A stretch of DNA of 64,000 bases from Methanolobus sediminis. Its GTDB lineage: Archaea; Halobacteriota; Methanosarcinia; Methanosarcinales; Methanosarcinaceae. Location of the stretch: positions 1,860,001-1,924,000 of the forward strand of contig NZ_CP133592.1 of NCBI RefSeq assembly GCF_031312595.1. Direction: 5' to 3'. Below, one piece after another: positions 20,663-63,132 of this stretch; positions within the stretch are counted from its first letter, which is position 1; every line of letters starts with the position of its first letter. A program made the translations under genes and the position numbers. The notes under the pieces are model-generated. The model did no database searches. It saw nothing but the letters and a program-made list of their open reading frames with translations, and was not told the DNA's origin.

Positions 20663-21205
20663 ATGTTGGACTATGAATCATCATTAAAGAATTCATGGAA
20701 TGTGGTTAAAGAAAACATTGTTACATTTATTGTTGGTCTTTTGATAACTGTAATTGGATCTGTTTTTATTGTTACTATGGCACCTCTGTTTTATGGATTT
20801 ACCTCGATGGCTGTAAAGGGTGCAAGAGGAGGAGCAATAGAAATTGGCGATGTCTTTGAAGGATTCAAAAAGGATAATATAATCAGAAGCTGGACATTTA
20901 TGATCATATATCTGGTTATTGCAGGAGTGCTTGGAGAGATAGCATCAATACTCAGCACCATAGTAGGAATACTCTTCATGTTTTCAATGCCATTGCTTGC
21001 TATAAAAGGGACAAACAGTGGAATTGAAGCAATTACAGAAAGTGTCGAAATTGTGAAAGCTGCCCCGGTAGAAAGTATTATTGTTTATGTTATAACGCTC
21101 GTACTCAACGTGATCGGCATTTTACTTCTTGGAATAGGAGTACTTATTACTGCACCTATAAGCGCAGTATTCCTGGTTTATGCAACCTTAGAGATGGCAG
21201 AGTAA
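20663..21205 (+). CDS. Multi-pass membrane protein, DUF4013-like
   Basis: 180 residues, with about five hydrophobic helices and short loops rich in Gly (FVEG-like GDVFEGFKK, GTNSGIEAITESVEIVKAAP). The repeated helix-loop pattern with amphipathic SVEIVK segments resembles the DUF4013/glycerophosphodiesterase-membrane-domain group common in methanogens. Function is unknown. Ribosome site AGGATG precedes the ATG. It has its own AT-rich upstream region (20590-20650), and it converges with the large coiled-coil gene at a shared terminator. Confidence 0.6.
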   Translation: MLDYESSLKNSWNVVKENIVTFIVGLLITVIGSVFIVTMAPLFYGFTSMAVKGARGGAIEIGDVFEGFKKDNIIRSWTFMIIYLVIAGVLGEIASILSTIVGILFMFSMPLLAIKGTNSGIEAITESVEIVKAAPVESIIVYVITLVLNVIGILLLGIGVLITAPISAVFLVYATLEMAE

Positions 21206-21305: not shown

Positions 21306-23969
21306 TTATATTCCGTATATCTCAGAACCTTTCTTAACTTTCTCGATATCCCTTTCTATTACAGAAAGTCTGTTCTTATCAACTTTCATACCTGCAAGGC
21401 TTTCGATGAACCAGATAGATTTTACATGGTCATCGGGAGTGAGCTTCCAGTCAGGTTTCTCCATATAGAAATCGATACCTTCGGCATAATGAAGAAGCTC
21501 CATCCTTACTTTCTCAGTGATCCAGCCAAGCTCTTCATAATACGACAATATATCAGGAAGGTTGTTGCGACCAACAAGTTCCATCAAAAACTCAAGCCAC
21601 TCCATACAGAGCTTCATGTTACTGGAATTTTTAACGATATTGGAAAGGTGAACATTCTGTCCGAATCCCTTATAACTTCTTGCACCAAGTTTCTTTAATT
21701 CACTTTCCATATATTCTGTGAGTGAATCGATCTTTTCCAGAACAGCAGTATTTTTCTGCTCGGATTCTTCCCTGAATTCCTGGAACTCTGAAGATACCTT
21801 TCCAAGATTATCAACCATTGATGATATCGAACGTGAAAATTCTTTTGATGTAGATCTTGATTCTTCCTGCATCTTTTCGATAAGCTCAACTCTTGGTCCA
21901 AATGAATCGATCTTAGATGACAATTCAGTCAGGATCGCAAATTTTGATTCGTTCTCCTGCAATGACTCATGCAACTGAGCAAGAAGGGCCATATAAGAAC
22001 CAACAAGTTCAGATATGTTCTCTTCTATTTGTGACATATTAGTTTTCATTGAAGCAGTATCAGAATTCAACATACCGATTGAAGAATCAAATTCAGAAAT
22101 CCTGGTTTCAACCTGTGAAACTTTACCGTCAACAAGATCAAAACGGGAATTGGTTTGGGAGAGAATATTTTCACTTGAATTTACAGCGGAAGCTACAGAT
22201 TCAGTAATCTCTGAGATTCGGTTTGAAAAATCTTCAACTTCAGAATGCATAGAGGAGAATTGAAGGTTCATATCATTCAGACTCGTTTTCAGTCCACCAA
22301 GGTCACCTTCAAGATTTTCAAACTTCTTATCAGTAGTTGACTTTATCTCCTTCAACTCTTTGGTGAACACCTTTTTTGAGAGTTCCATACCTGATGTGGA
22401 AGACGTCTTTTCCTGTACACTCATACTTTCAGACACATCTGAAACTTCATTTTCAATACAAGCTTCAACTTCAGGTTCTGTTTCTTCAGATAATGAATCT
22501 TGATTATGTTCCAATATAAATCGCTTATCAGATTTTGGCATATTATCAGGAAAAGAAGCCATTGTAAATGCACCAATTGAATCATCATTACCAAAATCAT
22601 CACTATCAAGTAGATATTCCTCTTTCATTTCCATAATTGGATTCTCAATAGGAGTTACCTGGCGTATAGAACTAACTGTCCCATCATCTTTATTTTCTAT
22701 GAAAGGATCCACGGATACTTTGGCATTTTCCTCAACAACCTTTTCGTTCTCAGCAAAAGGAGAAGAGAACGGACTAGAATCAACATTATTTTCCGAGGAT
22801 TCAAAGGGATTAGCATCAAATGGGGAAGCACTCGAAGTAATTTCCGGTTTTGATTCGGCAGTGTCTCTTAAAGACTCTGCAATATCCACTTCCCCCCGCA
22901 TGTCTTCCATCCGCTCAATAAGACTTTTGCCTTTAGTCAGATTTTTGAGGAAACCTCTTGTGATGCCAGAGATGCCTTCCAGGTTTTTCTTAAATGAACC
23001 CATATCAATTGGCAATTTAACAGGAAGCTTTTGTGAAGGTGTATTCTTTTCAAATGACCCTGCATCAGAAGCAACTTGATCACCAAATGGATTTTGAGAC
23101 TGAAAAACTCCAGGAGTTGGTTCAAAAGGATTGGATGCTACCGGGCTGCCGGCTGAAGCAAAAGGATCAGCTGGAGGAACAGCACCAGGACTAGATGCGA
23201 AGGGATTAGATTCTACCGGACCACCAGCGGAAGAAAAAAGATTGCCAGGTGGAACATCCCTAGAAGTGGACTCAAAGGGATTGGATTCTACAGGGACACC
23301 TGCAGGAGCAAAAGGATCAGCAGATGGAACATTGACAGGAGTGGATTCAAAGGGATTGAATTCTACAGAACCAGCAGAGGGAAAGTGATCAGGCTTTGGA
23401 AACAGTGGAGTCTGTACCTGTGAAGCAAATGATTGGGACTGATTTGATTCAGGAACAAAAGGTAAGGATTCCCCTATTTCAGGAGAAGATAGTCCGGATG
23501 GTTCGTCTGAGTTGATAAAAGGTTCAAATAATGGAGGAGGTGATCTTTTCTTTGCAGGAATTTCCATAACAGGCGAGGATCCAGATGATTGGTCCAAAGG
23601 TGAGACTATATCTAACTCATCTGTATTTGGTGGTGAGTTCATAAATGGCGGCATCTCCAGGGGAGCTTCTTTTTCCTCTGAAAAAGGAGCATTTGGAGGA
23701 GTGCTACCTAATACCGAAAGGTCAGGAAGATCACCAAATGAAGGAAAAGCTGTTTGTAGTGCCCCTGCCTTTGTTGAGGATGGATTTTCCTCAGATACCT
23801 CTATTTTTGCCTCTTCCATTGGTATGTCGGCAAAAGCATTTGCCAGTATGTCGGGAATCGGTGGTGCAGATTTCTTTTTTTCGCCGGATGCGTTCACAGA
23901 AGATTGCTCATCTTCAACAGAAGACATAATCTCTGCTATCTTTTTATTCTCCCATGGAAGTTCACTCAT
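21306..23969 (-). CDS. Very large FlaC/D/E-like (ArlCDE) coiled-coil protein
   Basis: 887 residues from ATG 23969. Residues about 1-340 are low-complexity, acidic, Pro/Ser-rich, with four copies of a 25-residue repeat containing NPFES and DPF motifs (about residues 195-295). Residues about 560-770 form a long coiled coil (LEGDLGGLKTSLNDMNLQFS, SSKIDSFGPRVELIEKM). The last about 115 residues are a FlaD/E domain (WLEFLMELVGRNNLPDIL, YMEKPDWKLTPDDHVKSIW, IESLAGMKVDKNRL), closely like the C-terminus of the ArlCDE protein at 61825. ArlC/D/E proteins link the archaellum motor to the chemotaxis adaptor CheF. This paralogue is outside the arl operon and twice as long. It has no signal peptide; it probably acts at the cytoplasmic face. 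Confidence 0.75.
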   Translation of the reverse strand: MSELPWENKKIAEIMSSVEDEQSSVNASGEKKKSAPPIPDILANAFADIPMEEAKIEVSEENPSSTKAGALQTAFPSFGDLPDLSVLGSTPPNAPFSEEKEAPLEMPPFMNSPPNTDELDIVSPLDQSSGSSPVMEIPAKKRSPPPLFEPFINSDEPSGLSSPEIGESLPFVPESNQSQSFASQVQTPLFPKPDHFPSAGSVEFNPFESTPVNVPSADPFAPAGVPVESNPFESTSRDVPPGNLFSSAGGPVESNPFASSPGAVPPADPFASAGSPVASNPFEPTPGVFQSQNPFGDQVASDAGSFEKNTPSQKLPVKLPIDMGSFKKNLEGISGITRGFLKNLTKGKSLIERMEDMRGEVDIAESLRDTAESKPEITSSASPFDANPFESSENNVDSSPFSSPFAENEKVVEENAKVSVDPFIENKDDGTVSSIRQVTPIENPIMEMKEEYLLDSDDFGNDDSIGAFTMASFPDNMPKSDKRFILEHNQDSLSEETEPEVEACIENEVSDVSESMSVQEKTSSTSGMELSKKVFTKELKEIKSTTDKKFENLEGDLGGLKTSLNDMNLQFSSMHSEVEDFSNRISEITESVASAVNSSENILSQTNSRFDLVDGKVSQVETRISEFDSSIGMLNSDTASMKTNMSQIEENISELVGSYMALLAQLHESLQENESKFAILTELSSKIDSFGPRVELIEKMQEESRSTSKEFSRSISSMVDNLGKVSSEFQEFREESEQKNTAVLEKIDSLTEYMESELKKLGARSYKGFGQNVHLSNIVKNSSNMKLCMEWLEFLMELVGRNNLPDILSYYEELGWITEKVRMELLHYAEGIDFYMEKPDWKLTPDDHVKSIWFIESLAGMKVDKNRLSVIERDIEKVKKGSEIYGI
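23124..23357. repeat. 75-bp tandem repeat inside the large ArlCDE-like gene
   Basis: The NPF-coding nonamer (AAAGGGATT and variants on the plus strand) recurs at 23124, 23199, 23274 and 23349, exactly 75 bases apart. Each unit codes for 25 residues of the form NPFES-x6-P-x3-PF-x3-G-x-PVES. A fifth, shorter NPF copy (near 23084) lies off the register. Copy number could vary between strains. Confidence 0.85.
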
Positions 23970-34098: not shown

Positions 34099-34405
34099 GT
34101 GATCACGTAATATGTTATGTTAGAAATAATAGGATTTTGGGGGTATGATTAAGTTAATAGTACTTAAGAATTGATATTAGATGATTTAAAAAATGATAAA
34201 AATAACCTTATGCTAAAAACATTCATGCAATAATTAAATATTTGTGTTTGATAGAATTGCCTATAAATCCTTGAACTTCTAACGATTTCAAGAGCAACAT
34301 ATTGCGATTCCAAAATAAATGCAGTTCGTTTATATATTTGTATGTCCATTTATGGGCAAGCACACATCATTTATAGACACATACGGAGGAATAATTGTTA
34401 AATCA
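34099..34405. other. Divergent promoter region between sudBA and the glycan island
   Basis: An AT-rich 300-bp stretch without coding content. It holds the minus-strand promoter of sudB and a clear TATA box for the plus-strand island, TTTATATATTT at 34329-34339, predicting transcription start near 34362. GGAGG at 34385-34389 is the ribosome site for manC. A longer manC frame from 34319 would include the TATA box and is therefore not translated. Confidence 0.6.
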
Positions 34406-35764
34406 ATGATACTGGCTGGTGGATCAGGAACACGCCTCTGGCCACTTAGTCGTGAAATGTATCCTAAACAGTTTCTGAAATTGAATGATACCTCCTTATT
34501 TCAGGACACAGTACTCAGATGTCTTGAGATATCAAACATCACAGAGATATTCATTGTAACAAACGAATTGCAGAAATTCTTTGTCATAGGTCAGATAGAA
34601 GAACTGGGCTATGAAATACCACCTGAAAACATACTTCTGGAACCCGTTGGAAAGAACACGCTTCCTGCAATCACTTTTGGAATGCATGAGATAAAGCAAC
34701 GCTTTGGAAAGTCTACAGTAGGCATATTTTCATCCGACCATATATTGGATAAAAAAGCAATGGAAATTATCAAAAATGTAGAGGAACTTGCCTCTGAATA
34801 TCTACTGACGTTCGGAGTAGTACCTACTTCACCACATACAGGTTACGGATACATTAAACCAGCAAATCCAATTGGAAATGGATTCAAGGTATCGGAGTTC
34901 AAAGAAAAACCAGATATATTCAATGCTGAGAAGTATATTAAAGAAGGGTGCCTCTGGAACAGTGGAATATTCCTGTTTGACACGGATATTTTTTTCGAAG
35001 AACTTGAAAAATATGCTCCAGAGATCAATGCTGCATTCAATAAAATAGAGGACATAGGAAAACTTTTTGAGGAAATCCCCTCAATTTCTATTGACTACGG
35101 AATAATGGAAAAATCGAATCGGGTTGCAGTCATAAAGCTTGATGAACGATGGAGTGACCTTGGCAGTTTCAAAGCCATCCATGATGAATTTGAGAAAGAT
35201 GAGAACAATAATATCATATTAAATTGCGATAATGTACTAATTAATTCATCCGGCAACTTAATTCATTCAAAAAACGGCAAAGTAGTATCACTTATTGATA
35301 TTAACGATACAATCGTTGTGGACACTCCTGACGCATTGTTGGTCTGCCCAAAAGAGAGTAGCCAGAAAGTAAAGGATGTTGTATCTTCACTCAAAGATAG
35401 AAAAGATGAACGTGCACAATTGCATCAGACAGTGTACAGGCCGTGGGGATCATACACAATACTGGAAGATTCTGAAAGGCACAAGATAAAGAACATAGTT
35501 GTTCTGTCACAGAAAAAGTTGAGTTTGCAATTACATCACCATAGAAGTGAACACTGGGTAGTTGTGAAGGGAATGGCTTGCGTACAGGTGGATGGTGAAC
35601 AATATTTCCTGAGACAGGGTGAGAGTACTTTCATCAAGGCAGGAATGAAACACAGATTATCTAACCCAGGAAAAGTGCCTCTTGAAATTATTGAGGTACA
35701 GCTAGGAGACTATGTAGGAGAGGATGATATTATCAGGTTTGACGATGATTATGGGAGAGAGTAA
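34406..35764 (+). CDS. manC: Mannose-1-phosphate guanylyltransferase / mannose-6-phosphate isomerase
   Basis: About 452 residues, the bifunctional type II enzyme. The nucleotidyltransferase domain has MILAGGSGTRLWPLSREMYP and FSSDHIL, FKEKP, and LWNSGIFLF; the cupin isomerase domain has YRPWGSYTILE, LQLHHHRSEHWVVVKG and GMKHRLSNPG. It makes GDP-mannose, precursor for mannose units and for GDP-fucose (gmd and fcl in this island). GGAGG lies 17 bases before this ATG but only five to six bases before ATT-GTT-AAA-TCA, so initiation at a non-ATG codon giving M(V)KSMILAGG, as in homologues, is possible. Confidence 0.92.
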   Translation: MILAGGSGTRLWPLSREMYPKQFLKLNDTSLFQDTVLRCLEISNITEIFIVTNELQKFFVIGQIEELGYEIPPENILLEPVGKNTLPAITFGMHEIKQRFGKSTVGIFSSDHILDKKAMEIIKNVEELASEYLLTFGVVPTSPHTGYGYIKPANPIGNGFKVSEFKEKPDIFNAEKYIKEGCLWNSGIFLFDTDIFFEELEKYAPEINAAFNKIEDIGKLFEEIPSISIDYGIMEKSNRVAVIKLDERWSDLGSFKAIHDEFEKDENNNIILNCDNVLINSSGNLIHSKNGKVVSLIDINDTIVVDTPDALLVCPKESSQKVKDVVSSLKDRKDERAQLHQTVYRPWGSYTILEDSERHKIKNIVVLSQKKLSLQLHHHRSEHWVVVKGMACVQVDGEQYFLRQGESTFIKAGMKHRLSNPGKVPLEIIEVQLGDYVGEDDIIRFDDDYGRE

Positions 35765-35824
35765 AAGATTGCATCTTTAGCAAATTTCCTCATTTATATA
35801 AAATCAAGACGTTAGAAGATTACA

Positions 35825-36787
35825 ATGCAAACTGAATCAAAACTTAAGAACAAAAAAATACTTGTCACCGGCGGTGCGGGATTCATCGGTAGTCATATTG
35901 TGGACATATTGATGAAAGAAGAGTGTAAAGTCATAGTTTTTGATAACTTGAGTTCGGGACGCATGGAGTTTATTGAACACCATACCGGAAATCCTAATTT
36001 TGAGTTCATAAATGGAGATTTACTTGCAACCGACGAAATAAGCATGGCATGTAATGACATTGATTTTGTATTTCATGTTGCAGCAAATCCAGATGTGAAG
36101 CTAGGAGTAGTTAACACAAAAGTGCACTTTGAACAGAACATCACAGCAACGTACAATCTGCTTGAAGCAATGCGCAAGAACAATGTACAAAATATTGCTT
36201 TCACTTCCACATCAACAGTTTACGGTGAAGCAGAGATTATTCCCACACCTGAGAACTATGGTCCATTGATACCAATATCGCTTTATGGTGCATCAAAGCT
36301 TGCATGTGAAGCACTTATTACCTCCTATTCACATACATTTGACATCAAATCCTGGATATTTAGGTTTGCGAATATTATAGGAGAAAGAAGCACGCATGGG
36401 ATCATTGTAGATTTCATTCAGAAACTAAAGGACAATCCATATCAACTTGAGATTCTTGGTGATGGTAGACAATCTAAATCATATCTTCATGTGAATGAAT
36501 GTGTCACGGCAATAATATTTGCTATAAACAGCAGCAATAAATCTGTTAATATATTCAATGTTGGTTCAGAGGATACGATAAATACCACTGATATTGGGAA
36601 GATTGTTGTAGAGAAAATGGGACTTCAGAATGTCGACTTCACATATACAGGCGGCAAACGCGGATGGAAAGGCGATGTACCAAGGATGTTGCTTGGAATT
36701 GATAAGTTGAAAAATATGGGATGGAATCCTGAGTATTCATCAAAAAGAAGTGTAAAAGAAACTGTGAAATCATTTATACATGACTAA
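35825..36787 (+). CDS. NAD-dependent sugar epimerase/dehydratase (GalE-like)
   Basis: 320 residues, extended SDR: GGAGFIGS NAD motif near residues 16-23, TSTSTVYGE with the active-site Ser/Thr, and YGASKLACE carrying the YxxxK pair. It resembles UDP-glucose 4-epimerases and related nucleotide-sugar enzymes of methanogens; the exact substrate is not clear. It is 60 bases after manC and 13 before the nucleotidyltransferase. Confidence 0.85.
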   Translation: MQTESKLKNKKILVTGGAGFIGSHIVDILMKEECKVIVFDNLSSGRMEFIEHHTGNPNFEFINGDLLATDEISMACNDIDFVFHVAANPDVKLGVVNTKVHFEQNITATYNLLEAMRKNNVQNIAFTSTSTVYGEAEIIPTPENYGPLIPISLYGASKLACEALITSYSHTFDIKSWIFRFANIIGERSTHGIIVDFIQKLKDNPYQLEILGDGRQSKSYLHVNECVTAIIFAINSSNKSVNIFNVGSEDTINTTDIGKIVVEKMGLQNVDFTYTGGKRGWKGDVPRMLLGIDKLKNMGWNPEYSSKRSVKETVKSFIHD

Positions 36788-36800
36788 AAAGTGACTATTT

Positions 36801-37811
36801 ATGAAAGTAATTATCCCCGCAGCAGGTACTGGAAAACGGCTTTTTCCCCACACTCACACAAAACCAAAACCCATGGTTTACATTGCAGGTAAACCCATAA
36901 TAGGACATATTCTTGATAGAATGATAGACCTTGAACCTGAAGAGATCATACTTATCGTTGGATACCACAAAGATCAATTAATTTCATACGTCAACGAAAA
37001 CTATAGAAACATATTTAACATCACGTATGTGGAGCAGGAAAAGAGGCTTGGACTTGGCCATTCTATATACATAGCACGTGAATATGTGAATGGTTCGGAC
37101 ATCATGATCGCTCTGGGAGATATGATCTTTAAAGCAGGATATCTGGATTTCTATCAAAGACATACTGGAAATGAGAAATGTGCAGGTTCGATAGGAGTAA
37201 AAGAAGTTGATGAACCCCGAAAATACGGAATCGTTGAGCTTGAGCAGAATTCGCCTTGCATCAGGAAACTTGAGGAAAAACCAGAAATACCAGTATCCAA
37301 TCTTGGAATTGCAGGAGTATACTTCATCAAAGATACAAAAATCCTGTTCGAAATCCTTGAAAGGATGATACAGGACAATATACGCTCACGCGGAGAATTC
37401 CAGCTGACTGATGCACTCCAGGAAATGATACAACAGGGCAACAAGCTTAAGACATTCGAGGTATCCAGCTGGTATGATTGCGGGCATGCAACATCTCTCC
37501 TTGAAACGAATCAGGTACTGTTGAACGAAAAAGAAAATATAAGCCATGATTACGAAAGCGTAGATTCTGTTATCATACATCCTGTGGCAATAGGAAACAA
37601 TGTAAAAATTACTAATTCTGTAATCGGACCACATGCATCGATTGCTGATGAAACAACTGTCGAGAATTCCATAATATCAGACAGTGTGATCGGGTCAAGG
37701 GCATGCATATCCAAAGTGAACCTGCAGTCATCCATAGTTGGGGATGAAGCTCATGTGGTTGGTAAGCATAACTCCTTAAATATAGGAGACTCTTCTTCAA
37801 TAGAGTTCTAA
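36801..37811 (+). CDS. Sugar-phosphate nucleotidyltransferase
   Basis: 336 residues. The N-terminal domain starts [22 protein letters not shown], the nucleotide-binding signature (with AAGTGKR instead of AGGxGTR), then [18 protein letters not shown] and LEEKPEIP. The C-terminal part (about residues 250-330) is a left-handed beta-helix with hexapeptide-like repeats ([17 protein letters not shown]). It couples UTP or dTTP to glucose-1-phosphate or a related sugar phosphate. It may supply the UDP-glucose route that ends in UDP-xylose. Confidence 0.85.
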
Positions 37812-37822
37812 AAAGTGATAAT

Positions 37823-38761
37823 ATGAAGTCAATAGTAACCGGTGGTGCAGGTTTTTTAGGATCACATCTGTGTGATCTCCTACTTGAGAAAGGACATGAG
37901 GTAGTTTGCATAGATAACCTTGTGACGGGGAATACAAAGAATCTTGACCACATTAACTCGGATAAATTTACCTATTTGAAACACGATGTAACCAAACCAA
38001 TATATTTTGATGATAAGATCGATTATATATTCCACCTGGCAAGTCCTGCTTCCCCAGTTGATTATCTCGAATTACCAATTCAGACATTAAAAGTGGGAGC
38101 TCTGGGTACTTATAATATGCTAGGGCTGGCAAAAGAGAAAGGTGCAAGATTGCTTATTGCCTCTACTTCTGAAGTTTATGGAGATCCTCAGGTCAATCCT
38201 CAGCCTGAAACCTATTGGGGGAATGTGAACCCTATTGGACCCAGAGGAGTCTATGACGAAGCGAAACGTTATGCTGAAGCTATTACTATGGCGTATCACA
38301 GGTATCACGGCATAGATACCAGAATCGTACGTATATTCAACACATATGGGCCACGTATGCGTGCAAATGACGGAAGGGTTGTCCCGAATTTTATAAACCA
38401 GGCACTAAAGGAGGAAGATATCACTGTGTATGGTAATGGAAGCCAGACAAGGTCCTTTTGTTACGTTTCCGATCTCATAGAGGGAATATACAGACTGATG
38501 ATGTCTGATTTTACAGATTCTGTGAACATAGGCAATCCTGCCGAAATGACAGTGTTGAAGTTTGCAGAAGAAGTTATTGATATAATTGGAAGCAAATCAA
38601 AGATCGTATTCAAAGACTTACCAGTTGATGATCCGAAAGTAAGAAGACCTGATATAAGCAGAGCTAAAGAGGTTCTCAAATGGGAACCAAAGGTCGGATT
38701 GAGGGAAGGGTTAGAGAAGACTATCAGATATTTTGAGAACATAGAATCCAATAAAAACTAA
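37823..38761 (+). CDS. uxs: UDP-glucuronate decarboxylase (UDP-xylose synthase)
   Basis: 312 residues, extended SDR with [32 protein letters not shown] (typical of this enzyme), [19 protein letters not shown] (YxxxK) and [10 protein letters not shown] with VPNFINQAL. It oxidises and decarboxylates UDP-glucuronate to UDP-xylose. The UDP-glucose dehydrogenase that would supply its substrate is not in the window. Being next to an NDP-sugar synthetase and gmd, it supplies an activated sugar for the surface glycan. Confidence 0.9.
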
Positions 38762-38784
38762 ATAAGTTATCAGGGGATATCCAA

Positions 38785-39819
38785 ATGACAAAAATCGCAT
38801 TGATCACCGGAATCACCGGTCAGGATGGAGCATATCTTGCAGAATTTCTCTTAAATAAAGGATATATTGTGCATGGTATCAAAAGGAGGGCATCTTCATT
38901 TAATACTGCACGCATTGATCATCTTTACAAGGATCCGCATGAGAGGAACGTGAACTTCTTCATGCATTATGGTGACCTGACAGACTCTACCAATCTTATA
39001 AGGATCATACAGGAAACACAGCCCGATGAGATCTACAACCTTGCTGCCCAGAGTCATGTGCAGGTTTCATTCGAAACCCCGGAATACACAGCAAATTCTG
39101 ATGCCTTAGGAACTCTCCGGCTCCTGGAAGCTATACGCATACTCGGTCTGGAAAAGAAGACGAAATTCTACCAGGCCTCCACAAGTGAGCTCTATGGAAA
39201 GGTACAGGAGATCCCACAAAGTGAAACAACACCATTCTATCCAAGAAGCCCTTATGCAGCAGCTAAATTATATGCCTACTGGATCACCATAAACTATCGT
39301 GAAGCTTACGGCATGTTTGCTTGTAATGGCATACTGTTCAACCATGAATCCCCCATACGTGGCGAGACCTTCGTTACAAAAAAGATAACAATGGCTGTGG
39401 CCAATATCAAGAAAGGTCTTCAAGAGAAATTATATCTAGGAAATCTTGATGCAAAAAGAGATTGGGGGTTTGCAGGCGACTATGTGGAAGCCATGTGGTT
39501 GATGCTGCAACAGGATGAACCTGATGATTATGTAATCGCGACCGGGAAGACTCATTCAGTAAGAGAGTTTGTGGAGCTTGCATTTGGGGAAGTTGGAATT
39601 GAAATTGAATGGAAAGGCAAAGGTGTTGATGAGGTAGGATTGGATGCTGCAACTGGTGAGACTATGGTTGAGATTGATCCACGATATTACAGACCAACTG
39701 AAGTAGATATTCTTGTAGGTGATCCTACTAAAGCTAAGAATAAGCTAGGATGGGAATCAAAGGTTGAGTATGGAAATTTGGTGAAGATGATGGTTGATGA
39801 AGATTTAAGGAAATTCTGA
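38785..39819 (+). CDS. gmd: GDP-mannose 4,6-dehydratase
   Basis: 344 residues with the full signature: [17 protein letters not shown] at the N-terminus, [58 protein letters not shown] (YxxxK) and [16 protein letters not shown]. It converts GDP-mannose to GDP-4-keto-6-deoxymannose, the first step to GDP-fucose; the second enzyme is at 49632. Ribosome site GGGG at a suitable distance. Confidence 0.95.
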
Positions 39820-39894
39820 AGACTACATATATACCAATTAAACTGGTTTTATTCATATTACTATAGTTCATACATAAAAGATATCCTACAAACC

Positions 39895-41364
39895 ATGTTC
39901 AAATTAACCACCTTTGTTTCACATATAATGAGTATAGGTTCAATCCAGCGACAGGCCATAGTTTCTTTCGTCTGGCAGATTACATTCACCTTCGTCGGTC
40001 TTTTAAGCACAATTTATTTCGCACGCACAGTTGGAGCAGGTGTTCTGGGAGAATACTTCCTATTTCTTGCATACCTCAGTATCATTTCTCTAATGACAGA
40101 TGGAGGATTAGGAGGGGCTGCGATCAAGCGCATAAGTGAAGGTGAAGAACCAGATACTTATTTCAGCGCATTCGTCGTCTTACGCTCGTTTTTTATGATG
40201 TTGGTATTGGTAACTCTTATAGTACTTAGAACTTGTTTTGAAGAACTCAACAATTCTGGCATATTTATCTGGCTTATACTGGCATTGATAGTTTCACTGT
40301 TGCATGGAGCTGTATCAAGCAGCATGGCAGGATGTGGCAAGATTGGAATACAGTCCACAGCTACATTCATAAATAACATTTCACGAATTTTTTTTCAAGT
40401 CTTCGCCGTTTTTTTAGGGTTTGGTATTTCGGGGCTTGCAGGGGGGTTTGTTTTTGGATTGTTTGTAGGCTCTATAGTTCAATTGCATTTTTTTGATCTT
40501 CGTTTTGTACGTTTTGAGTGGAAACATGTTAAAAGTCTGTGGAGTTTTTCGTTGTGGACATTTTTAATATCAGCTGGAATGATTGTGTATTCTACTGCAG
40601 ATACAATTATGTTAGGTTATTATCTTAGTAATGCAGACGTGGGTGTGTATCGCATAGCACTACAGTTTACAGCACTAGCAACATTTGCAACAGATGCACT
40701 TCGTGTGACTTTGTGGCCAAGGGTCAGCCGCTGGGGAATAGTTGGAGAGATTGGATTAATAGAAGATTCGCTCTCTCGTGCATTTACATACTCACTTGTT
40801 CTAGCAATACCAATATTTGTAGGTGGGGTTTTACTGGGGGATAAACTCCTGTATTATTTCTACGGTGCGGAATTTGGACGAGGCTATATGACAATGGTGC
40901 TATTGTTCATTGTACAACTTGTAAATATATTTCAGTTCATTTCCACATCATATCTGAGTGCGTTGGATCATCTTAAAGACCTGTTAAGAATCACTATGGT
41001 GGCAGTTGTGGCAAACATTGTGTTGAATGCAATATTGATACCTGTAATAGGTATTGAAGGAGCTGCAATTGCTACGTTTATCACCATGGGATTAAATGCG
41101 GTTCTGGCAATGTGGGTATTATCAAAAATACTGACAATAAGAGTGGAATCGGAAAGCTTGATGAATATTCTTAAGGCATCTTTTTTGATGTCGTTGTTTG
41201 TGGGTGGATATCGAATGATTGTACCTTTGTCTAATATATGGCTGGTACTGGTTCCAGTTATAGTGGGCGGAGGTATCTATGGGATTTTGGTGTTGAATTT
41301 TGATAGAAAGATTTTAGGAGAATTCAACATGATATGTACAAATTTAATAAAAAATACCAAATAA
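39895..41364 (+). CDS. Polysaccharide/oligosaccharide flippase (MOP superfamily)
   Basis: 489 residues with about 12-14 hydrophobic helices over its length, opening RQAIVSFVWQITFTFVGLLSTIYFARTVGAGVLGEYFLF, the family's first two helices (positions 39940-40060 encode them). Members flip lipid-linked oligosaccharides across the membrane; here the partner is AglB at 51773. An internal ATG at 39928 (MSIGSIQRQ) may be the start; neither has a clear ribosome site. A TATA-like element (atacataaaag) lies about 25-35 bases upstream of 39895. Confidence 0.88.
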   Translation: MFKLTTFVSHIMSIGSIQRQAIVSFVWQITFTFVGLLSTIYFARTVGAGVLGEYFLFLAYLSIISLMTDGGLGGAAIKRISEGEEPDTYFSAFVVLRSFFMMLVLVTLIVLRTCFEELNNSGIFIWLILALIVSLLHGAVSSSMAGCGKIGIQSTATFINNISRIFFQVFAVFLGFGISGLAGGFVFGLFVGSIVQLHFFDLRFVRFEWKHVKSLWSFSLWTFLISAGMIVYSTADTIMLGYYLSNADVGVYRIALQFTALATFATDALRVTLWPRVSRWGIVGEIGLIEDSLSRAFTYSLVLAIPIFVGGVLLGDKLLYYFYGAEFGRGYMTMVLLFIVQLVNIFQFISTSYLSALDHLKDLLRITMVAVVANIVLNAILIPVIGIEGAAIATFITMGLNAVLAMWVLSKILTIRVESESLMNILKASFLMSLFVGGYRMIVPLSNIWLVLVPVIVGGGIYGILVLNFDRKILGEFNMICTNLIKNTK

Positions 41365-41392
41365 ATCATAAGCTCAATTATAAACTTGCCAC

Positions 41393-41406
41393 TTGTACGA
41401 GTACAA
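41393..41406. promoter_or_regulatory. Short palindrome upstream of the AT-rich glycosyltransferase block
   Basis: TTGTAC-ga-GTACAA forms a near-perfect palindrome in the 167-bp gap after the flippase gene. It may be a terminator stem or protein site. The AT-rich glycosyltransferase block begins just after. Confidence 0.35.
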
Positions 41407-41531
41407 TAAAAGTGATTGAAGAAGAATATATACTAAATTATTATGGTCGTTAGTATTATATTGGGGTAAAACCTCATGACAATTTGAATAAAATTGTTAA
41501 AGCACTAAATCCAAGTTAGAGAGGATTTTAA

Positions 41532-42305
41532 ATGAGTAATGTTGTTAATCAAGAATATTGGGATTCATCATATTCCAATTTAAATCTTGAATATGATGAA
41601 AAGAAGGTACTTTTTAAAAAGATATTTGAAAAATATCTACGCCACAACCCACAAGGTTCCTGTATTGAAATTGGTTGTTACCCCGGAAACTTTTTAATCT
41701 ACATATGTAGCAAATTTAAATATATTGCTAACGGCGTAGATACTACGCCCTATATTAATACTAAGTTAGTACCTCATCTGAAAAATAACAACATATCTAT
41801 TGGTGATTTCTTTCAACAAGATTTTATGAGTTTTAACCCAGGGATTACCTACGATTTGGTTTGTTCATTTGGATTTATAGAACATTTTAGAAATATGGAT
41901 GATGTTATGCTGAAACATATTGAACTTGTTAAACCAGATGGAACATTGATAATATCCTGTCCAAATTATAGAAAAATTCAATATATACTCCATAAATTGT
42001 TAGATTCTGATAATTTAGAACGCCATGTGCTTGAAACTATGGATTTACATAAAATGACTCAGATTTTAGAAAAATATGATATGGAAGTACTCTTTCAAGG
42101 ATATTTCAAAACAGCGGATTTTTGGATAGATTCAAACCATCAAAGCTTTTTAAAACCTGTGCTATCTCAATGCATCACATATGTTTTTAGTATTATAAAT
42201 AAATATGTTGATAAACCTAACTCATGGCTTTCTCCATATATGATATGCATAGCAAAAAAAAAGAATAGCCCCAATAATTCTACTAATGTAAAGAAGATAT
42301 TATGA
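41532..42305 (+). CDS. Class I SAM-dependent methyltransferase
   Basis: 257 residues. The SAM-binding motif I is CIEIGCYPGNFL (about 38-49), with SFGFIEHF and PDGTLIISCPNY as later motifs. Such small methyltransferases in glycan clusters methylate sugar hydroxyls. GAGAGG is upstream of the ATG. Its base composition is visibly more AT-rich than the nucleotide-sugar genes before it. It overlaps the following glycosyltransferase by four bases (ATGA). Confidence 0.82.
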   Translation: MSNVVNQEYWDSSYSNLNLEYDEKKVLFKKIFEKYLRHNPQGSCIEIGCYPGNFLIYICSKFKYIANGVDTTPYINTKLVPHLKNNNISIGDFFQQDFMSFNPGITYDLVCSFGFIEHFRNMDDVMLKHIELVKPDGTLIISCPNYRKIQYILHKLLDSDNLERHVLETMDLHKMTQILEKYDMEVLFQGYFKTADFWIDSNHQSFLKPVLSQCITYVFSIINKYVDKPNSWLSPYMICIAKKKNSPNNSTNVKKIL

Positions 42306-45371: not shown

Positions 45372-45382
45372 TCGAGTTTAAT

Positions 45383-46522: not shown

Positions 46523-46530
46523 GTATAAAA

Positions 46531-47463: not shown

Positions 47464-47478
47464 TTAAAGGATTTAACC

Positions 47479-48426: not shown

Positions 48427-48448
48427 CTGCACTTTCAATAGAGATAAC

Positions 48449-49597: not shown

Positions 49598-49631
49598 AAT
49601 AATATGATATAAAATGTTATGAGGGTAAATA

Positions 49632-50567: not shown

Positions 50568-50624
50568 ATTGATAAATACTATATATTGACGAGATATCAA
50601 TCAAAATCCCATAACAAAAGGACC

Positions 50625-51479: not shown

Positions 51480-51772
51480 CTATTTAATAGGGCACACATT
51501 TTGATAGCATAATACATATTTCCATTCGACAGTAATTAAAAGAGTTCTTTCAGAATTAATTAGTGACTGATAGATATATATTGAATAATGAATTAATAAC
51601 TCACAGTTCAGAAATCATTTATTATCATATAGGTATATTCTACAAAGTTGTTAAAAAGCCAATGGCTGGTCACTTAGATTCTATTATGCAGAAATATGAT
51701 ACATGATAAATTAAGTTCCATAACTGCATATACGAGAATTTGTTTGATACGCATTAAATGTGAGTGAAGCAT

Positions 51773-56765: not shown

Positions 56766-58421
56766 TCAGGCAATGCCCAGTAGTGATGACACTGCTGCCA
56801 TGGTCACCACAGCACTTGCACCGGATATCCATACCATGATCACAAAATCAATTGTAGCACTGAGCATATGTCCACCATCCACAATACGGATCAGGATAGC
56901 TGACATCAGTGAATGACCGATCATGATCGCCAGAACCATGTTTGAAAGTGTGGTTAAGCTCCCTATATTAGTGTAGAGAACCATTCCCATGGACATCCCG
57001 GCAGGCATTTCCACTGCGGAGAACATATTCTGCATAAGTCCCACTACACCAAGGGAAATATACATGGTAAAACCAATACCCCCCGTCAGACCATACAAAA
57101 CACCCACAAGACTTCCGGCAGACTGCGACCTTTTCTTTCTGAGAGTTACTATCCTGTGGAAATTCGTAGCAATAATGTCACCTATGACCTCTGGCTGACC
57201 ACCGAGATTTGTAGATTGAACGAACATTCCGGAAAAACGCTGGATAAGATTGCTTCCGGTATTTGAGGCAAAATAATCCCAGGAATCGAACTTGTTAATC
57301 CTGGTAACAAGCATCTTATAGAGATTGTTCACATCAGTTGTCAGCGGTCCGAAGTCATGCGCCCTCAAAGCTCTAAGAGCATCATCAATGACACCACCCC
57401 TGGCACCGGCAGAACTTCCAAGAGAACGAATGAAAGCAGGAAAATTCTCATCTTTTCTCCTGATACTCTTTTCGATCTTTCTTGAAACATGACCGGTGTA
57501 GACAAGAGGCGTTAGCACCATGGCAACTGCAATACTTGTTTCTATTTTACCATAAAGGACTACAGCAATTAAAACAACAATACATCCTGCAATTGATACT
57601 GGTATTGAACGATATAGTTTCAGTTTGTTCTCAGTCATATTCGTTGACTGGCTCCATGCCGGATCTTTTGGGATCTTGCTCTTTGTGAACATCACCATTA
57701 CAAGATCAGTTACAAGGAAAATGACTACCACAATACCCATGAGTAGTTCTGCATTCATACCGGTAATAACAGGCATGATTACAGCAAATGAAGCCATGAA
57801 AATCAGTGACATAACCAGAGATACAAAAAGTTCCTTGATGATCTCAACAACATAGAGTGCACCGTTGTACATGGCCTCATACTCGTTCATCACAACGTTC
57901 TGTTCTGCGAAAAGGAAAGTCTTTACATCTTCTCCTGACTGGAGAGCATGTGCAAATCTATCCAGGAAATCCTCGAATATTACAGAAGGAGTCCTTTTGG
58001 AAATGAAACGACATGCATCTGCCAGACTCATGTGCCATACCGTCACAAGGTCGTATATTTTCTTTGTTTCCGTTGCAAGCTCCTGATAATCCTCATTTTC
58101 CGAAACAATACGTACAATATCTATCCTCGGAGTTTCTGCCGTTGCAATGGAACCCATCTGAGTGATGTAATAGTGCATATTATTGTCTATTCGCGAAGCT
58201 TTGCCAGCCAGAATCGAAAGAGGGTAAGAAAATGCAAATACAATACAGATAATGGGTATCAAATAAGGGATATATCTGGCAGTTCCCACAAATATCGTTG
58301 GGAGCAATAAAAGAAGAAGGATTGCGAAAAAAAATCCAAAAGCTATGATAGGTAAAGCAAATTTTCTGAAATAGGCCTTGGGCTCCATACCAATATTCTT
58401 GAATGCTTTATCATAGCTCAC
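56766..58421 (-). CDS. arlJ: Archaellum membrane protein ArlJ (FlaJ)
   Basis: 551 residues with two groups of membrane helices at each end and cytoplasmic loops with charged helices (GEDVKTFLFAEQNVV), as in the TadC/FlaJ platform family. It forms the membrane base on which the ArlI ATPase acts. It is the last gene of the arl operon, nine bases after arlI, and converges with the AksF/LeuB-like gene. Confidence 0.92.
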   Translation of the reverse strand: MSYDKAFKNIGMEPKAYFRKFALPIIAFGFFFAILLLLLLPTIFVGTARYIPYLIPIICIVFAFSYPLSILAGKASRIDNNMHYYITQMGSIATAETPRIDIVRIVSENEDYQELATETKKIYDLVTVWHMSLADACRFISKRTPSVIFEDFLDRFAHALQSGEDVKTFLFAEQNVVMNEYEAMYNGALYVVEIIKELFVSLVMSLIFMASFAVIMPVITGMNAELLMGIVVVIFLVTDLVMVMFTKSKIPKDPAWSQSTNMTENKLKLYRSIPVSIAGCIVVLIAVVLYGKIETSIAVAMVLTPLVYTGHVSRKIEKSIRRKDENFPAFIRSLGSSAGARGGVIDDALRALRAHDFGPLTTDVNNLYKMLVTRINKFDSWDYFASNTGSNLIQRFSGMFVQSTNLGGQPEVIGDIIATNFHRIVTLRKKRSQSAGSLVGVLYGLTGGIGFTMYISLGVVGLMQNMFSAVEMPAGMSMGMVLYTNIGSLTTLSNMVLAIMIGHSLMSAILIRIVDGGHMLSATIDFVIMVWISGASAVVTMAAVSSLLGIA

Positions 58422-58430
58422 AAAAACACC

Positions 58431-60092
58431 TCATATTGAAAATGGAAGACCGTCTATTCCATGCTTGTAGAAATTGACTATGATCTCAAGCACGTCATAA
58501 TAATCCTCAATGCCCCTTGACTTCATTTCTTCCAGTATCTTTGCTCTGAGGAAAAGATCCTGGTAAATCATTCTTTTATCTTCATAACCAAGCTTTGTAG
58601 CTATTTTATCCTCGAGGATGTAACTGTTGTTCAGACCACGGAACTTGTGCCTATCAGTATCAGGTTCCCATTGGAAAACAGCCCTTGTTGCAACACCACC
58701 TATTTCCTCATAGTAACCTTCTATTTCCTCAATGGCAAGAGCTCGCCTGAGAAACTTTCCTTTACGATAAACTGCCGAAAGGATCATTGCAATGTTAAGG
58801 TTATCAATGAAAGTTACAGGTACATTGATAGGGTCTGCCGTAAGACGCTGGATCATCTTTGATACAGCAGATGCGTGGAAAGTTGCGAGTACAGGGTGAC
58901 CTGTCTGCATACCCTGAAAAGCTACGTTACCTTCGGCTCCTCGAATCTCACCTACGATGATGTAGTTTGGTCTTGAACGAAGAGCGGCCTTTAGCAAGGC
59001 AAAAGTATCTACTCTTGATTCAGGCGGACCTTCCTCACGAGTGATCAACTGCTGCCAAACAGGCTGTGGTGGCTGAACTTCAGCAGTGTCTTCTGCAGAA
59101 AATACCTTGGCTTTTGGGTTAACAAAAGCAAGACATGCATTGAGCATTGTTGTTTTCCCACTTGCGGTTTCACCACTAAAGAAAATACTCATACCGTTCT
59201 CAAGGCACATCCACATGTAAGCCGCCATTTCAGCACTTAATGCGCCCCAGCTTATGAGCTGGATAATACTTACCGGCACTTCACTGAATTTACGCATGGT
59301 GAAACTGCTACCACGCCTACTGACATCTATACTATAAATGATATTGATACGCGAACCATCAGGAAGAGCACCATCGGCAATTGGCCTTGCATCACTTACA
59401 GGACGGCCGATACGCTCACTCATACTGCGCAGCCAGTTATCCAGACCTTCCTCATCCCCAAATGTCAGATCGGTTTTAATGGTGTCAAATATTTTGTGAA
59501 CAATAAATACGTTGTCCACACCTATACTGCTGATATCTTCAAGATAAGGGTCTCTGATAATTGGTTCAATGGGGCCGGAGCCGATGATGTCCCTTTCAAG
59601 ATGATAGAGAATTTTATTATACTCTCCCTGGGTCATAGGCACTTTTTTCTGGACCGGCATGAGTTTCTGGAGAATATCGAACTTCCCTCCGCCCTTTTCA
59701 TCAGCCATATTCCCGCCTGAACCTATGTCTATAGATTCATTGAACAGTTTTGTGATAAGATCCTTAAGTTCCGCTTCGGTGTTTGGGACAGGTTCGCGAG
59801 CAGATTTTTCCAGAATGATGTCCAGAGCTGCTTTATACTTCTTTTTTTCCAGATTATTAAGTTCAGGTTCTACTCCATAGTAGTTTATCTCTCCCTGTTC
59901 GTCACCACCATAAAGGTGTATGAATACAGGATCACCAACCGGAAGGATGATATTAACTCTTGAATGATCGATGTCTTTTGAAAGACTTACCATGAAAGTT
60001 GGTTCATCTTCACCAGTCTCGCGCATGAATTTCTTTACATATTCACCCAGATGCGGGTTCCTTTGTACTGCTTTCTGAAATTCTGCATCCAT
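58431..60092 (-). CDS. arlI: Archaellum motor ATPase ArlI (FlaI)
   Basis: 553 residues, type II/IV secretion ATPase. Walker A FFSGETASGKTTMLNACLAF (about residues 305-324), an Asp box (VFSAEDTAEVQ), Walker B-like YIIVGEIRGAEG, and His box (MQTGHPVLATFHA) are all present; the N-terminal domain is of the FlaI type. It powers both archaellum assembly and rotation. It is followed by arlJ and preceded by arlH. Confidence 0.95.
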   Translation of the reverse strand: MDAEFQKAVQRNPHLGEYVKKFMRETGEDEPTFMVSLSKDIDHSRVNIILPVGDPVFIHLYGGDEQGEINYYGVEPELNNLEKKKYKAALDIILEKSAREPVPNTEAELKDLITKLFNESIDIGSGGNMADEKGGGKFDILQKLMPVQKKVPMTQGEYNKILYHLERDIIGSGPIEPIIRDPYLEDISSIGVDNVFIVHKIFDTIKTDLTFGDEEGLDNWLRSMSERIGRPVSDARPIADGALPDGSRINIIYSIDVSRRGSSFTMRKFSEVPVSIIQLISWGALSAEMAAYMWMCLENGMSIFFSGETASGKTTMLNACLAFVNPKAKVFSAEDTAEVQPPQPVWQQLITREEGPPESRVDTFALLKAALRSRPNYIIVGEIRGAEGNVAFQGMQTGHPVLATFHASAVSKMIQRLTADPINVPVTFIDNLNIAMILSAVYRKGKFLRRALAIEEIEGYYEEIGGVATRAVFQWEPDTDRHKFRGLNNSYILEDKIATKLGYEDKRMIYQDLFLRAKILEEMKSRGIEDYYDVLEIIVNFYKHGIDGLPFSI

Positions 60093-60111
60093 ATTACAAC
60101 TACCTTTAAGA

Positions 60112-60807
60112 TTATGATACTGAAGCTATCTCTACTACAAGACCGACCTTAGGTTCTATTCTAAACCCGATCATCTGTCCGACCGGACCCTTGGCACCGG
60201 TGAACTTGTTTACAACAATAGTCCTCTTGACTTCACTTCCCAGAGGCTTTGATTTGAGAGTAATGTAAACGTCACAGGAAGAGCGGAACATTGAAGCAAG
60301 GTCTTCTGTTAACTGGTTTGGCTCTATTGTAAGAATTATAACCTTACCCATACCATTCAGTTTCTTGAAAAACGAAATCAGATCAAGAGTTTTCTCAGTA
60401 TTGGCACTGTATTTGATAAGTGAGGATAGAGTATCAATTATGATCACATCTTTTTCAAACAGCTCCTCTGCAGCCATTAGTCTTTCAATAAAATCACAAC
60501 GGGATTTTGCTGCCTGGACCAGCGGAATAACAGGTATGTATAAAAGCAGACCATTCAAAAGAAACGGAGCTATGGGATAATCCATTGAATACATCTGGTT
60601 AATAAAACCCTTTGTTGTCATTTGTGTCGAGACAAACGTAACACTGACATCGTTTTCGTTTAATCCGAATGAAAGACGCTGGGAAATTGTACTTTTTCCT
60701 CCGCCACTGCCACCTTCAAGTACGACTAGTGAACCGGCAGGAAAGCCTCCTCCCAATTTATCATTCAAATCATCCCTCGGGATTGCAAATGCATTGATCT
60801 TTGCCAT
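60112..60807 (-). CDS. arlH: Archaellum ATP-binding protein ArlH (FlaH)
   Basis: 231 residues, RecA/KaiC-like fold. Walker A GGSGGGKST (about 32-40) and a Walker B-like VIIIDTLSSL (about 122-131) are visible. ArlH binds ATP and forms a ring with ArlI inside the motor complex. It is 13 bases downstream of arlG. Confidence 0.92.
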   Translation of the reverse strand: MAKINAFAIPRDDLNDKLGGGFPAGSLVVLEGGSGGGKSTISQRLSFGLNENDVSVTFVSTQMTTKGFINQMYSMDYPIAPFLLNGLLLYIPVIPLVQAAKSRCDFIERLMAAEELFEKDVIIIDTLSSLIKYSANTEKTLDLISFFKKLNGMGKVIILTIEPNQLTEDLASMFRSSCDVYITLKSKPLGSEVKRTIVVNKFTGAKGPVGQMIGFRIEPKVGLVVEIASVS

Positions 60808-60820
60808 TATTTGCCTCTTA

Positions 60821-61327
60821 TTACGTTTTGAAACTCATTGCACCGGATTTTCCATTCTCAGCTGCAACAAGCACTCTGTGATCACCTGTTTCAAGTGGTG
60901 AAGGCTCAGTGGTTACATTCAGTGTGAGAATATCTCCCGGCCTCCATACAACATCCCCATCTGTCAACGCAGCATCGACACTAGTAGGTTCTATTAATAT
61001 ACCATCCACAAGTACGGTCACATATTCAGGAACAAGTTCAGTCTTGCCGGTATTCTTTGCGTAAAATGTGTATTTACCGGAACCACCGTCATAGGGGATT
61101 ATCTCAGGATCGTTCACTATGGTTATGTCAGTCCGCATCTGTTCGGACACTAATTTGCTGCTTGCACTGGATGAAGCAATCATGGACTGAACATTACCGG
61201 AGATAAGAACAACTACACTGACAGCCAGGATCATTGCGGCTATAAAGAAGATCATATGAGTTACTGCGGTTTCTGCACCTGTATTTTTCAGTAAGCTGTT
61301 TCTCTCTGTTTTTAGCATGCTTTTCAT
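60821..61327 (-). CDS. arlG: Archaellum stator-type protein ArlG (FlaG)
   Basis: 168 residues with one N-terminal membrane helix (about 25-47: MIFFIAAMILAVSVVVLIS) and an extracytoplasmic beta domain (YTFYAKNTGKTELVPEYVTVLVDG) like an archaellin core. ArlG and ArlF link the motor to the S-layer. No class III cleavage site is evident. A second ATG three codons in is possible as start. Confidence 0.85.
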   Translation of the reverse strand: MKSMLKTERNSLLKNTGAETAVTHMIFFIAAMILAVSVVVLISGNVQSMIASSSASSKLVSEQMRTDITIVNDPEIIPYDGGSGKYTFYAKNTGKTELVPEYVTVLVDGILIEPTSVDAALTDGDVVWRPGDILTLNVTTEPSPLETGDHRVLVAAENGKSGAMSFKT

Positions 61328-61403
61328 GTTTTTCTGCCAGCCCGATGCAAATAGAATTAGAATTATAATATATAATTAATAGTATATAAGATTGCTATTC
61401 TGT

Positions 61404-61835
61404 TCAGACAATATATGAACTATAAGCAGAAACTCCGTTTCGAGTTACAATTTTTACACGATGGACACCGGTACCGGAAAGATCAGTTATTGTCATATTA
61501 CGGGTCTCTGCAGGTGTCCAGATTGCTGCAACATCACTGTACACATAGGATTCCAGATCGCCGTCAACAAGAACGTTGAGCTCATCAAAGCGGATAGTCT
61601 CGCTACCAGTGTTTGAAAGTGTCACAGTCAAGTTGTAGGTGCCTGAGTAGTTCCCTGCAACAGCACTTTCCACCTCAAGATTCGTTTTAAGTTTTGAATT
61701 CTGCATCTGGTAATGTTCTTCAGAAGCATCGCTTACAATCTCATTTGAAGTGTTAAGCATGGAATATGAATATGAACCAACTACAAGAGCAGAGATGAAG
61801 AATATCACTGCCACAACAGAAAGTTCAAATCCCAT
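61404..61835 (-). CDS. arlF: Archaellum stator protein ArlF (FlaF)
   Basis: 143 residues: N-terminal helix (SVVAVIFFISALVVGSYSYS) then a beta-sandwich (NLTVTLSNTGSETIRFDELN, VLVDG). ArlF binds S-layer protein in its soluble domain and is thought to anchor the motor. Its start overlaps the ArlCDE stop by 11 bases, confirming one operon. Confidence 0.87.
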   Translation of the reverse strand: MGFELSVVAVIFFISALVVGSYSYSMLNTSNEIVSDASEEHYQMQNSKLKTNLEVESAVAGNYSGTYNLTVTLSNTGSETIRFDELNVLVDGDLESYVYSDVAAIWTPAETRNMTITDLSGTGVHRVKIVTRNGVSAYSSYIV

Positions 61836-63132
61836 ACAATTCCTCCAGACCGTGCTTTACCTTTGCCATTTCCCTGTCAATAGAACTGAGCATGTTTCTG
61901 TCGATCTTGCGGCCTGAGAGCCTTTCAATGAAGAGCAGGGATTTTGTATGGTCTTCTGGCAAAAGACGCCATGTGGGCTTTTCCACATAATAGTCAATTC
62001 CACGAGCATATGCCATTATCTCTGACATAACATCCTCGCTTATCCAGCCAATGTCAACATAATAATCAAGAGCATCCATCAGATTGTTTCTTCCAACTCT
62101 TTCCATGAGGAACTCTATCCAGTTAAGCAGGACAACTACACTGGTAGGGTCTGCTTTTATGAACTCAAGTCTTACAAGAGGCAGGGCAGATTTCTTTGCA
62201 GCATGTTCCTCTGCATCTTCACTTTCCTGAGTACTTGTATCCTGGGCATTTTCATCGTCCTTAGAAGAAGCAACATTTGAACCTGCAACTGGAACTGGGC
62301 GATTTTCAAGATCTTCAAGCCTGATAGTAATAGCGGATGTAGTTTCTGCAAGGTCAAGCAAATTCTGATTAATGGAATCGGTACGTGTGAATAATTCGTC
62401 TGTTTTTGAGTTTAATTGCTCGATACTTTCATGCATCATTATCATGGCATCAGCGAATGCATCCATCTTGGATTCAAAATCCTGCAACCTTGAAGCAGCT
62501 TCTTCAGAGATACCTTTTGACATACTTAATTTCTGAGCAGTGGAATCAAACTCATTTTTCATGAGAACGAGCATATCACCCATTTCGGTGAGACGGGTCT
62601 CTGTCTTTTCAAATCTCTCAATAGTATCCCTGGAACCTGCACTATCCCCTACAAAAGGATTGACCTGGTTGGATACGATTTCATACAGGGATAATAATTC
62701 AAGGACACTCTGGTCGATCTTATCAACCGTTTTTCTAATTTCCTCATTGTCCCTCTGCACCATATTGAGAGTAACATCTGCTTTTGATACTTTAGACTCA
62801 ACTTCCTTGATCTTTTTGCGATTCTCCTCCAGCATCTCATTATCTATAGGTGCAGCCTGAGGAGCGGCTTGTCCCGGCATACCCGGCGGACCGCCGGGAG
62901 GAGACATACCCGGAGGAAATACAGAATCTCCGGGCGAACCTGGAGCCATGCCAGGAAGACCACCTAGTACAGGTGGCATACCAGCAGCCAGATCAGGAAC
63001 GGAACCCAGGTCAGGTCCACCCTGCATGAAAGGAGGGACATCACCACCAAACGGAGAGCCCCCTCCATTGCTCTTGTTCTTTTTGGAAAGAACAGAGGTA
63101 ACTTTTTTGATTTTATCACTAAATCCGGCCAT
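61825..63132 (-). CDS. arlD: Archaellum cytoplasmic protein ArlCDE (FlaC/D/E fusion type)
   Basis: 435 residues. The N-terminal part (about 20-95) is Gly/Pro/Met-rich and low-complexity (GGDVPPFMQGG, PPGGPPGMPG), residues about 100-265 are coiled-coil, and the last 110 residues are the FlaD/E domain (LLNWIEFLMERVGRNNLMDA, YVEKPTWRLLPEDHTKSLLF, RMLSS-like end). In euryarchaea, ArlC/D/E proteins couple chemotaxis signals (through CheF) to the motor. It heads the operon; no archaellin gene precedes it. Compare the giant paralogue at 21306-23969. Confidence 0.88.
   Translation of the reverse strand: MAGFSDKIKKVTSVLSKKNKSNGGGSPFGGDVPPFMQGGPDLGSVPDLAAGMPPVLGGLPGMAPGSPGDSVFPPGMSPPGGPPGMPGQAAPQAAPIDNEMLEENRKKIKEVESKVSKADVTLNMVQRDNEEIRKTVDKIDQSVLELLSLYEIVSNQVNPFVGDSAGSRDTIERFEKTETRLTEMGDMLVLMKNEFDSTAQKLSMSKGISEEAASRLQDFESKMDAFADAMIMMHESIEQLNSKTDELFTRTDSINQNLLDLAETTSAITIRLEDLENRPVPVAGSNVASSKDDENAQDTSTQESEDAEEHAAKKSALPLVRLEFIKADPTSVVVLLNWIEFLMERVGRNNLMDALDYYVDIGWISEDVMSEIMAYARGIDYYVEKPTWRLLPEDHTKSLLFIERLSGRKIDRNMLSSIDREMAKVKHGLEELYGI

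Follow-up and report, generated by a model that had tools for sequence, protein, structure and literature searches.

A giant ArlCDE paralogue outside the archaellum operon of Methanolobus sediminis, probably a displaced second D/E-type subunit of the archaellum

Two D/E proteins per archaellum are likewise found in Haloferax and Halobacterium, where one of them, ArlCE, is fused to FlaC and the other, ArlD, is sometimes encoded outside the cluster. In Haloferax ArlCE and ArlD interact (reviewed in PMC8978795), and in H. salinarum FlaCE and FlaD are both bound by CheF-type proteins and deletion of flaCE or flaD reduces archaellation and motility (Schlesner et al., PMC2666748). The latter paper also places CheF in nearly all archaeal che regions, with the che2 regions of Methanosarcina lacking it. 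An additional flaD outside the fla cluster was described in M. burtonii and two haloarchaea by Desmond et al. (2007, PMC1914349), whose text, so far as it bears on this gene, explains it by duplication and displacement. The second FlaD of M. burtonii is, as described there, the same kind of gene as the one analysed below, and the sampled Methanococcoides genomes carry an orthologue of it.

The gene lies within a window of 64,000 nucleotides of Methanolobus sediminis (positions 1,860,001 to 1,924,000 of contig NZ_CP133592.1), to which coordinates given without a locus refer. It occupies positions 21306..23969 on the minus strand and encodes 887 residues, running from an ATG at 23969 to a stop at 21306; the call draws on the open reading frame, Pfam matches, orthologues and purifying selection. 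A TTG nine bases upstream of the ATG is a possible alternative start, and the ATG is preferred because the N-terminus MSELPWENKK (23940..23969, minus) is conserved. The first-pass annotation had proposed an ArlCDE paralogue outside the archaellum operon, and the C-terminal domain bears this out: residues 771–860 (21390..21659, minus) match PF04659 (Arch_fla_DE) with 95.8 bits, above the curated cut-off of 21 bits (1.5e-27 in the Pfam search, 1.1e-28 in the whole-genome search), and the gene lies outside the arl cluster, about 38 kb from that of the operon ArlCDE, whose own D/E domain scores 94.2 bits. The two D/E domains are 53% identical across 115 residues and both contain the FlaD/E motifs that had been listed (RNNL; Y-EKP-W-L-P-DH-KS; LAG/LSG-K-D). 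A FlaD/E-like fold is also predicted, as AlphaFold gives this domain the same five helices in the same order in both proteins, with high confidence for the giant, the models being compared through secondary structure and not by superposition. With the operon ArlCDE model as query, Foldseek found no match with E < 1 in the PDB, and for this reason we assign the D/E domain no named known fold; searched against solved structures, the sequence of the entire giant gave coiled-coil matches only.

Preceding the D/E domain, residues 553–758 (21696..22313, minus) are modelled as a single continuous helix of about 206 residues, in agreement with the 200-residue coiled coil of the annotation. Hidden in this helix is a degenerate FlaC-like segment (residues 616–659; 21993..22124, minus) that matches PF05377 (FlaC_arch) with 22.6 bits, below the cut-off of 27.8 bits; in orthologues the match reaches up to 35.6 bits, in some cases over the cut-off. 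Among the operon-type ArlC proteins examined in the phylum sample, YE...VNPF or a close variant closes the FlaC segment. The VNPF signature is missing from every giant compared, and in the M. sediminis genome the giant thus has neither of the two marks of ArlC, a PF05377 match over the cut-off and VNPF. Because the helix holds the weak FlaC match, the giant has the full ArlCDE order of parts, its FlaC being decayed and its N-terminus very long. This N-terminus, residues 1–545 (22335..23969, minus), is predicted to be disordered, with pLDDT mostly below 50 (460 of the 887 residues of the whole protein fall below this value) and short predicted helices at residues 8–15, 324–342 and 350–360. It had been described as a 340-residue acidic tail rich in Pro and Ser; the composition holds, while the region is N-terminal and about 545 residues long.

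The operon copy (61825..63132, minus; 435 residues, FlaC plus D/E by Pfam and AlphaFold model) shares the order of FlaC, coil and D/E with the giant and differs from it in possessing the ArlC signature, here VNPFVGD (62644..62664, minus); in the giant this is lost, the disordered N-terminus is more than fivefold longer and the helix is unbroken. The rest of the archaellum operon (56766..61835, minus), read from gene order and searches, comprises ArlF (61404-61835) and ArlG (60821-61327), assigned from gene order, and three genes named from their place in the operon and its usual layout as ArlH (60112-60807), ArlI (58431-60092) and ArlJ (56766-58421), all on the minus strand. No k-mer of 10 or more occurs both upstream of the giant and upstream of the ArlCDE operon. 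Open reading frames at 34319-54235, near the operon, read as sugar-nucleotide, glycosyltransferase and AglB-like oligosaccharyltransferase genes and constitute a candidate archaellin glycosylation set, and a GvpD/KaiC-like ATPase and a response-regulator protein are encoded just past the operon (L106:2899-4239 and 1748-2809).

The disordered region of the giant includes a stretch rich in NPF and DPF (residues 203–400; 22770..23363, minus). The protein has six NPF and three DPF motifs, nine in total against 0.49 expected from composition (Poisson P ~3e-9), so that the motifs noted in the first pass are indeed enriched. It is a feature of Methanolobus only, with up to 18 motifs per giant in other members of this genus and 0–3 in other genera, and NPF is ruled out as the family-wide core docking motif since it is almost absent outside Methanolobus. 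The residues flanking NPF in the disordered part are unlike the FlaC signature. The short motif conserved across the family is instead [FL]PW[DE], which lies at or near the N-terminus, is present or nearly so in most full-length giants and is repeated in some; PLFEP occurs in many. To our knowledge, neither NPF/DPF nor [FL]PW[DE] has a known binding partner in archaea.

Comparison of M. sediminis with five Methanolobus relatives, with synonymous sites saturated in one of the pairs, gave dN/dS values of 0.30–0.37 for the disordered part, 0.13–0.27 for the coil and 0.00–0.01 for the D/E domain. The giant is under purifying selection, which is very strong on the D/E domain and weaker in the disordered part. 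The D/E domain of the operon copy gave 0.03–0.04, and within the genus that of the giant is therefore at least as constrained. Across genera the giant has diverged more, its D/E domain being 76% identical to that of Methanococcoides as against 89% for the operon copy.

A tree calculated from 128 D/E domains recovers the giants as a single clade (97/92), which joins the short second copies of family f3 (99/94), and sets the operon copies apart, so that the phylogeny called for in the first pass places the giants in a clade of their own. In the same tree the Methanosarcinales copies group together against the haloarchaeal-type pairs (support 98/93; a few rows from other families fall within), and the giant clade is found in the Methanosarcinaceae only. 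In a smaller tree of 58 rows the giants plus f3 copies are supported at 100/98 and the giants alone at 89/40, and the AU test on this tree disfavours, marginally, a grouping of the giants with haloarchaeal-type short D proteins (p 0.029 and 0.047). The giant does not group with haloarchaeal ArlD-type proteins as an ArlD orthologue would, and the haloarchaeal D-type proteins that were fetched are mostly about 150–300 residues long, compared with 887. Since the Methanosarcinales copies group together and the AU test disfavours the haloarchaeal-type grouping, the pair of giant and operon copy probably arose separately from the haloarchaeal pair. The evidence that a separate, old duplication within the order gave rise to the giant clade is moderate, because the trees rest on just 110 columns. 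Two further genomes of the same order (G037:C18 and G040:C69) contain weak D/E matches (38–42 bits) within open frames that are very long, 1943 and 894 residues, and in family f5 (G050:C60 and G054:C37; L225 and L227) there are proteins of 200–209 residues whose D/E domain is N-terminal rather than C-terminal.

The sample comprised 112 Methanosarcinaceae genomes, of which 55 encode a full-length ArlJ of this archaellum type. The giant is present in 53 of these 55 and missing from G017 and G062, drafts that consist of about 170 and 130 contigs, respectively. Of the remaining 57 genomes three have it intact or nearly so, G013 and G018 among them being fragmented drafts with ArlCDE; G134, with pieces of the giant at contig ends, was left out of the count. 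Many of the genomes come from one genus, so the counts are phylogenetically non-independent and Fisher's test on them is descriptive only. Complete giants range from 446 to 1056 residues and vary in length chiefly through the disordered part. Three genomes from two genera (G033, G090 and G077) have lost their archaellum genes or keep only remnants of them; the pilin-like operon described below is intact in these genomes, and at the same site the giant persists as a remnant, either interrupted by stop codons or cut down to 49 matching residues. Of two other archaellum-less genomes, G088 has the giant split into 118 and 99 residues and G084 lacks it. The third of the genomes outside the 55, G089, has an intact giant frame of 478 residues although its ArlJ is reduced to a 66-residue remnant; it is a real exception to the co-loss and has perhaps lost its archaella recently. 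Apart from G089, the giant co-occurs with the archaellum motor and is lost alongside it.

Two Methanosalsum genomes, G031 and G097, encode a second giant of 884 and 887 residues (L089 and L173), which is co-oriented with a second ArlCDE, separated from it by two genes, and adjoins an archaellin array. A giant near a second ArlCDE and archaellins was found only in Methanosalsum. Two small genes beside this array resemble ones beside the archaellin array of M. sediminis (L249). The ArlI frame of G031 (L091:738-4235) is 1165 residues long compared with about 553, with two matching parts and some 600 extra residues, possibly an intein.

Taken with D/E homology and the predicted fold, the degenerate FlaC, the separate clade and purifying selection on the D/E domain, the co-occurrence in 53 of 55 genomes, the decay in most archaellum-less genomes read and the position of the second Methanosalsum giant lead us to regard the giant as probably a dedicated archaellum component, a second D/E-type subunit of the cytoplasmic ArlCDE switch/scaffold complex that was displaced after an old duplication. 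The link to the archaellum that had been suggested in the first pass is supported by the same distribution, remnants and archaellin-array giant. Against this reading stand the intact giant of G089 and the lack of a common 10-mer upstream of the giant and the ArlCDE operon. The D/E domain would work by homology to haloarchaeal ArlCE and ArlD, which bind each other and CheF (PMC8978795), and the long helix and disordered N-terminus may extend outward to recruit, space or position other proteins; beyond homology and co-occurrence, each step of this mechanism is one that we infer. Given the modelled coil and disordered region, the scaffold role proposed in the first pass is a fair guess.

The gene neighbourhood in other genera brings in a different candidate partner. 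In six genera, g3, g4, g5, g6, g8 and g23, the giant stands at the start of an operon with six pilin-like genes (Pfam DUF7287, DUF7288, DUF7261, DUF7266 and DUF7289), reading in the same direction as these and nearly abutting them, with gaps of about 8–75 nt or small overlaps, at a site that often has the atpABD genes or dapF on one side and a DUF4013 gene on the other. On the basis, in part, of named sister loci, we take g3 to be Methanococcoides, g5 Methanohalobium, g6 Methanosalsum and g8 Methanohalophilus. This arrangement argues for some link with the pilin-like system, and G085 and G089 have a divergent pilin-like set after the giant, yet it is unlikely that the giant serves that system by providing a type IV pilus with a borrowed D/E module. 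In Methanolobus and g25 the giant occupies the same syntenic site and the pilins are not there. In M. sediminis the site is marked by a gene for a DUF4013-like membrane protein (20663..21205, plus), convergent with and still adjacent to the giant, and the pilin-like operon lies some 0.7 Mb off, as a tandem pair near 1.18 Mb that adjoins Mre11/Rad50-like genes (L247:7833-17322). It is likewise duplicated in G004 (L248), away from the giant and adjoining Mre11/Rad50-like genes, and no D/E protein is encoded beside the duplicated operons of either genome. Moreover, G033, G090 and G077 retain the pilins and have lost the giant, and the second Methanosalsum giant sits in an archaellin locus. Because archaellum-less genomes keep pilins while the giant usually decays, the simplest account is that the gene was kept for the archaellum rather than for the pilins. 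The switching between archaellum and pilus suggested in the first pass is not supported as stated, given the same losses and the distance of the Methanolobus pilin-like operons.

Other readings keep the giant at the motor and assign it a different task there. The che cluster of M. sediminis (L104, near 2.08 Mb) encodes CheY, CheB, CheA, CheR, CheD and four CheC-family proteins, and CheW genes are present besides; between CheR and a CheC-like gene it also encodes a 706-residue PilM/FtsA/MreB-type actin-fold protein (L104:6523-8643; PilM_2, 7e-12). A search of the entire genome with PF04283 (CheF) gave no match, so that CheF as a partner, the suggestion of the first pass, fails as stated; the Pfam matches of the giant include no CheF either. 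Among the archaellate genomes of the family, 31 were searched (G000-G026 and G028-G031) and none gave a full CheF match; five Methanolobus gave partial matches of 19–28 bits, and the control genomes and family f3 gave clear ones. One partial match (L250:5260-6462) was rejected, as it covers the N-terminal part only and lies in no che cluster but beside a KaiC-like and a PAS-type gene. In other archaea CheF is the adaptor at the cytoplasmic face of ArlCDE; its comparison with the giant is functional, with no sequence relation found. We give little credence to the giant as a CheF substitute, in which the disordered region would dock CheY-P, CheC or CheD on the motor in a lineage that has the other che proteins and lacks CheF; such an adaptor role, gathering chemotaxis proteins on the motor and connecting CheY-P to rotation switching, with the Methanolobus NPFs perhaps replacing the lost VNPF, seems equally doubtful. 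That family f3, which has CheF, carries second copies that are all short and devoid of a disordered region agrees with it, but this is a single evolutionary contrast, G029 has a giant and an archaellum and no CheW-domain match, no CheY-binding motif was identified in the giant, and the CheF family is divergent and could escape detection; CheF in the M. sediminis lineage may itself have diverged beyond the PF04283 model. More doubtful still is a role in the polar cap, a cone-shaped sheet that lies in the cytoplasm behind the motors of euryarchaea, with the giant as a structural component or as an anchor. A long modelled coil and disordered region on an ArlCDE module might suit such a part, and a suggested contact of ArlC and ArlDE with the cap is related in PMC8978795, but caps are reported in Thermococcales and Halobacterium and the giant clade is confined to the Methanosarcinaceae.

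With the giant read as a second D/E-type subunit, what is new here is its architecture, the lost VNPF, the family-wide distribution, the pilin linkage with its opposing loss pattern, the second Methanosalsum pair and the undetectable CheF. The account in PMC1914349, in the parts that deal with the M. burtonii gene, covers its existence and duplication and does not extend to the disordered region, the degenerate FlaC, the linkage to a pilin operon, the co-loss or the distribution across the family. According to PMC8978795 it is yet to be established where the ArlCDE subunits lie and how many there are, and the wiring of the motor to chemotaxis and its cytoplasmic anchoring are at stake. A second subunit throughout the family, with a long and variable arm and in a lineage whose che genes include no CheF that can be detected, allows a direct test of whether another adaptor is used. 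The pattern of loss indicates in addition that gene neighbourhood, here a pilin-like operon, can point to a different partner than evolutionary history does.
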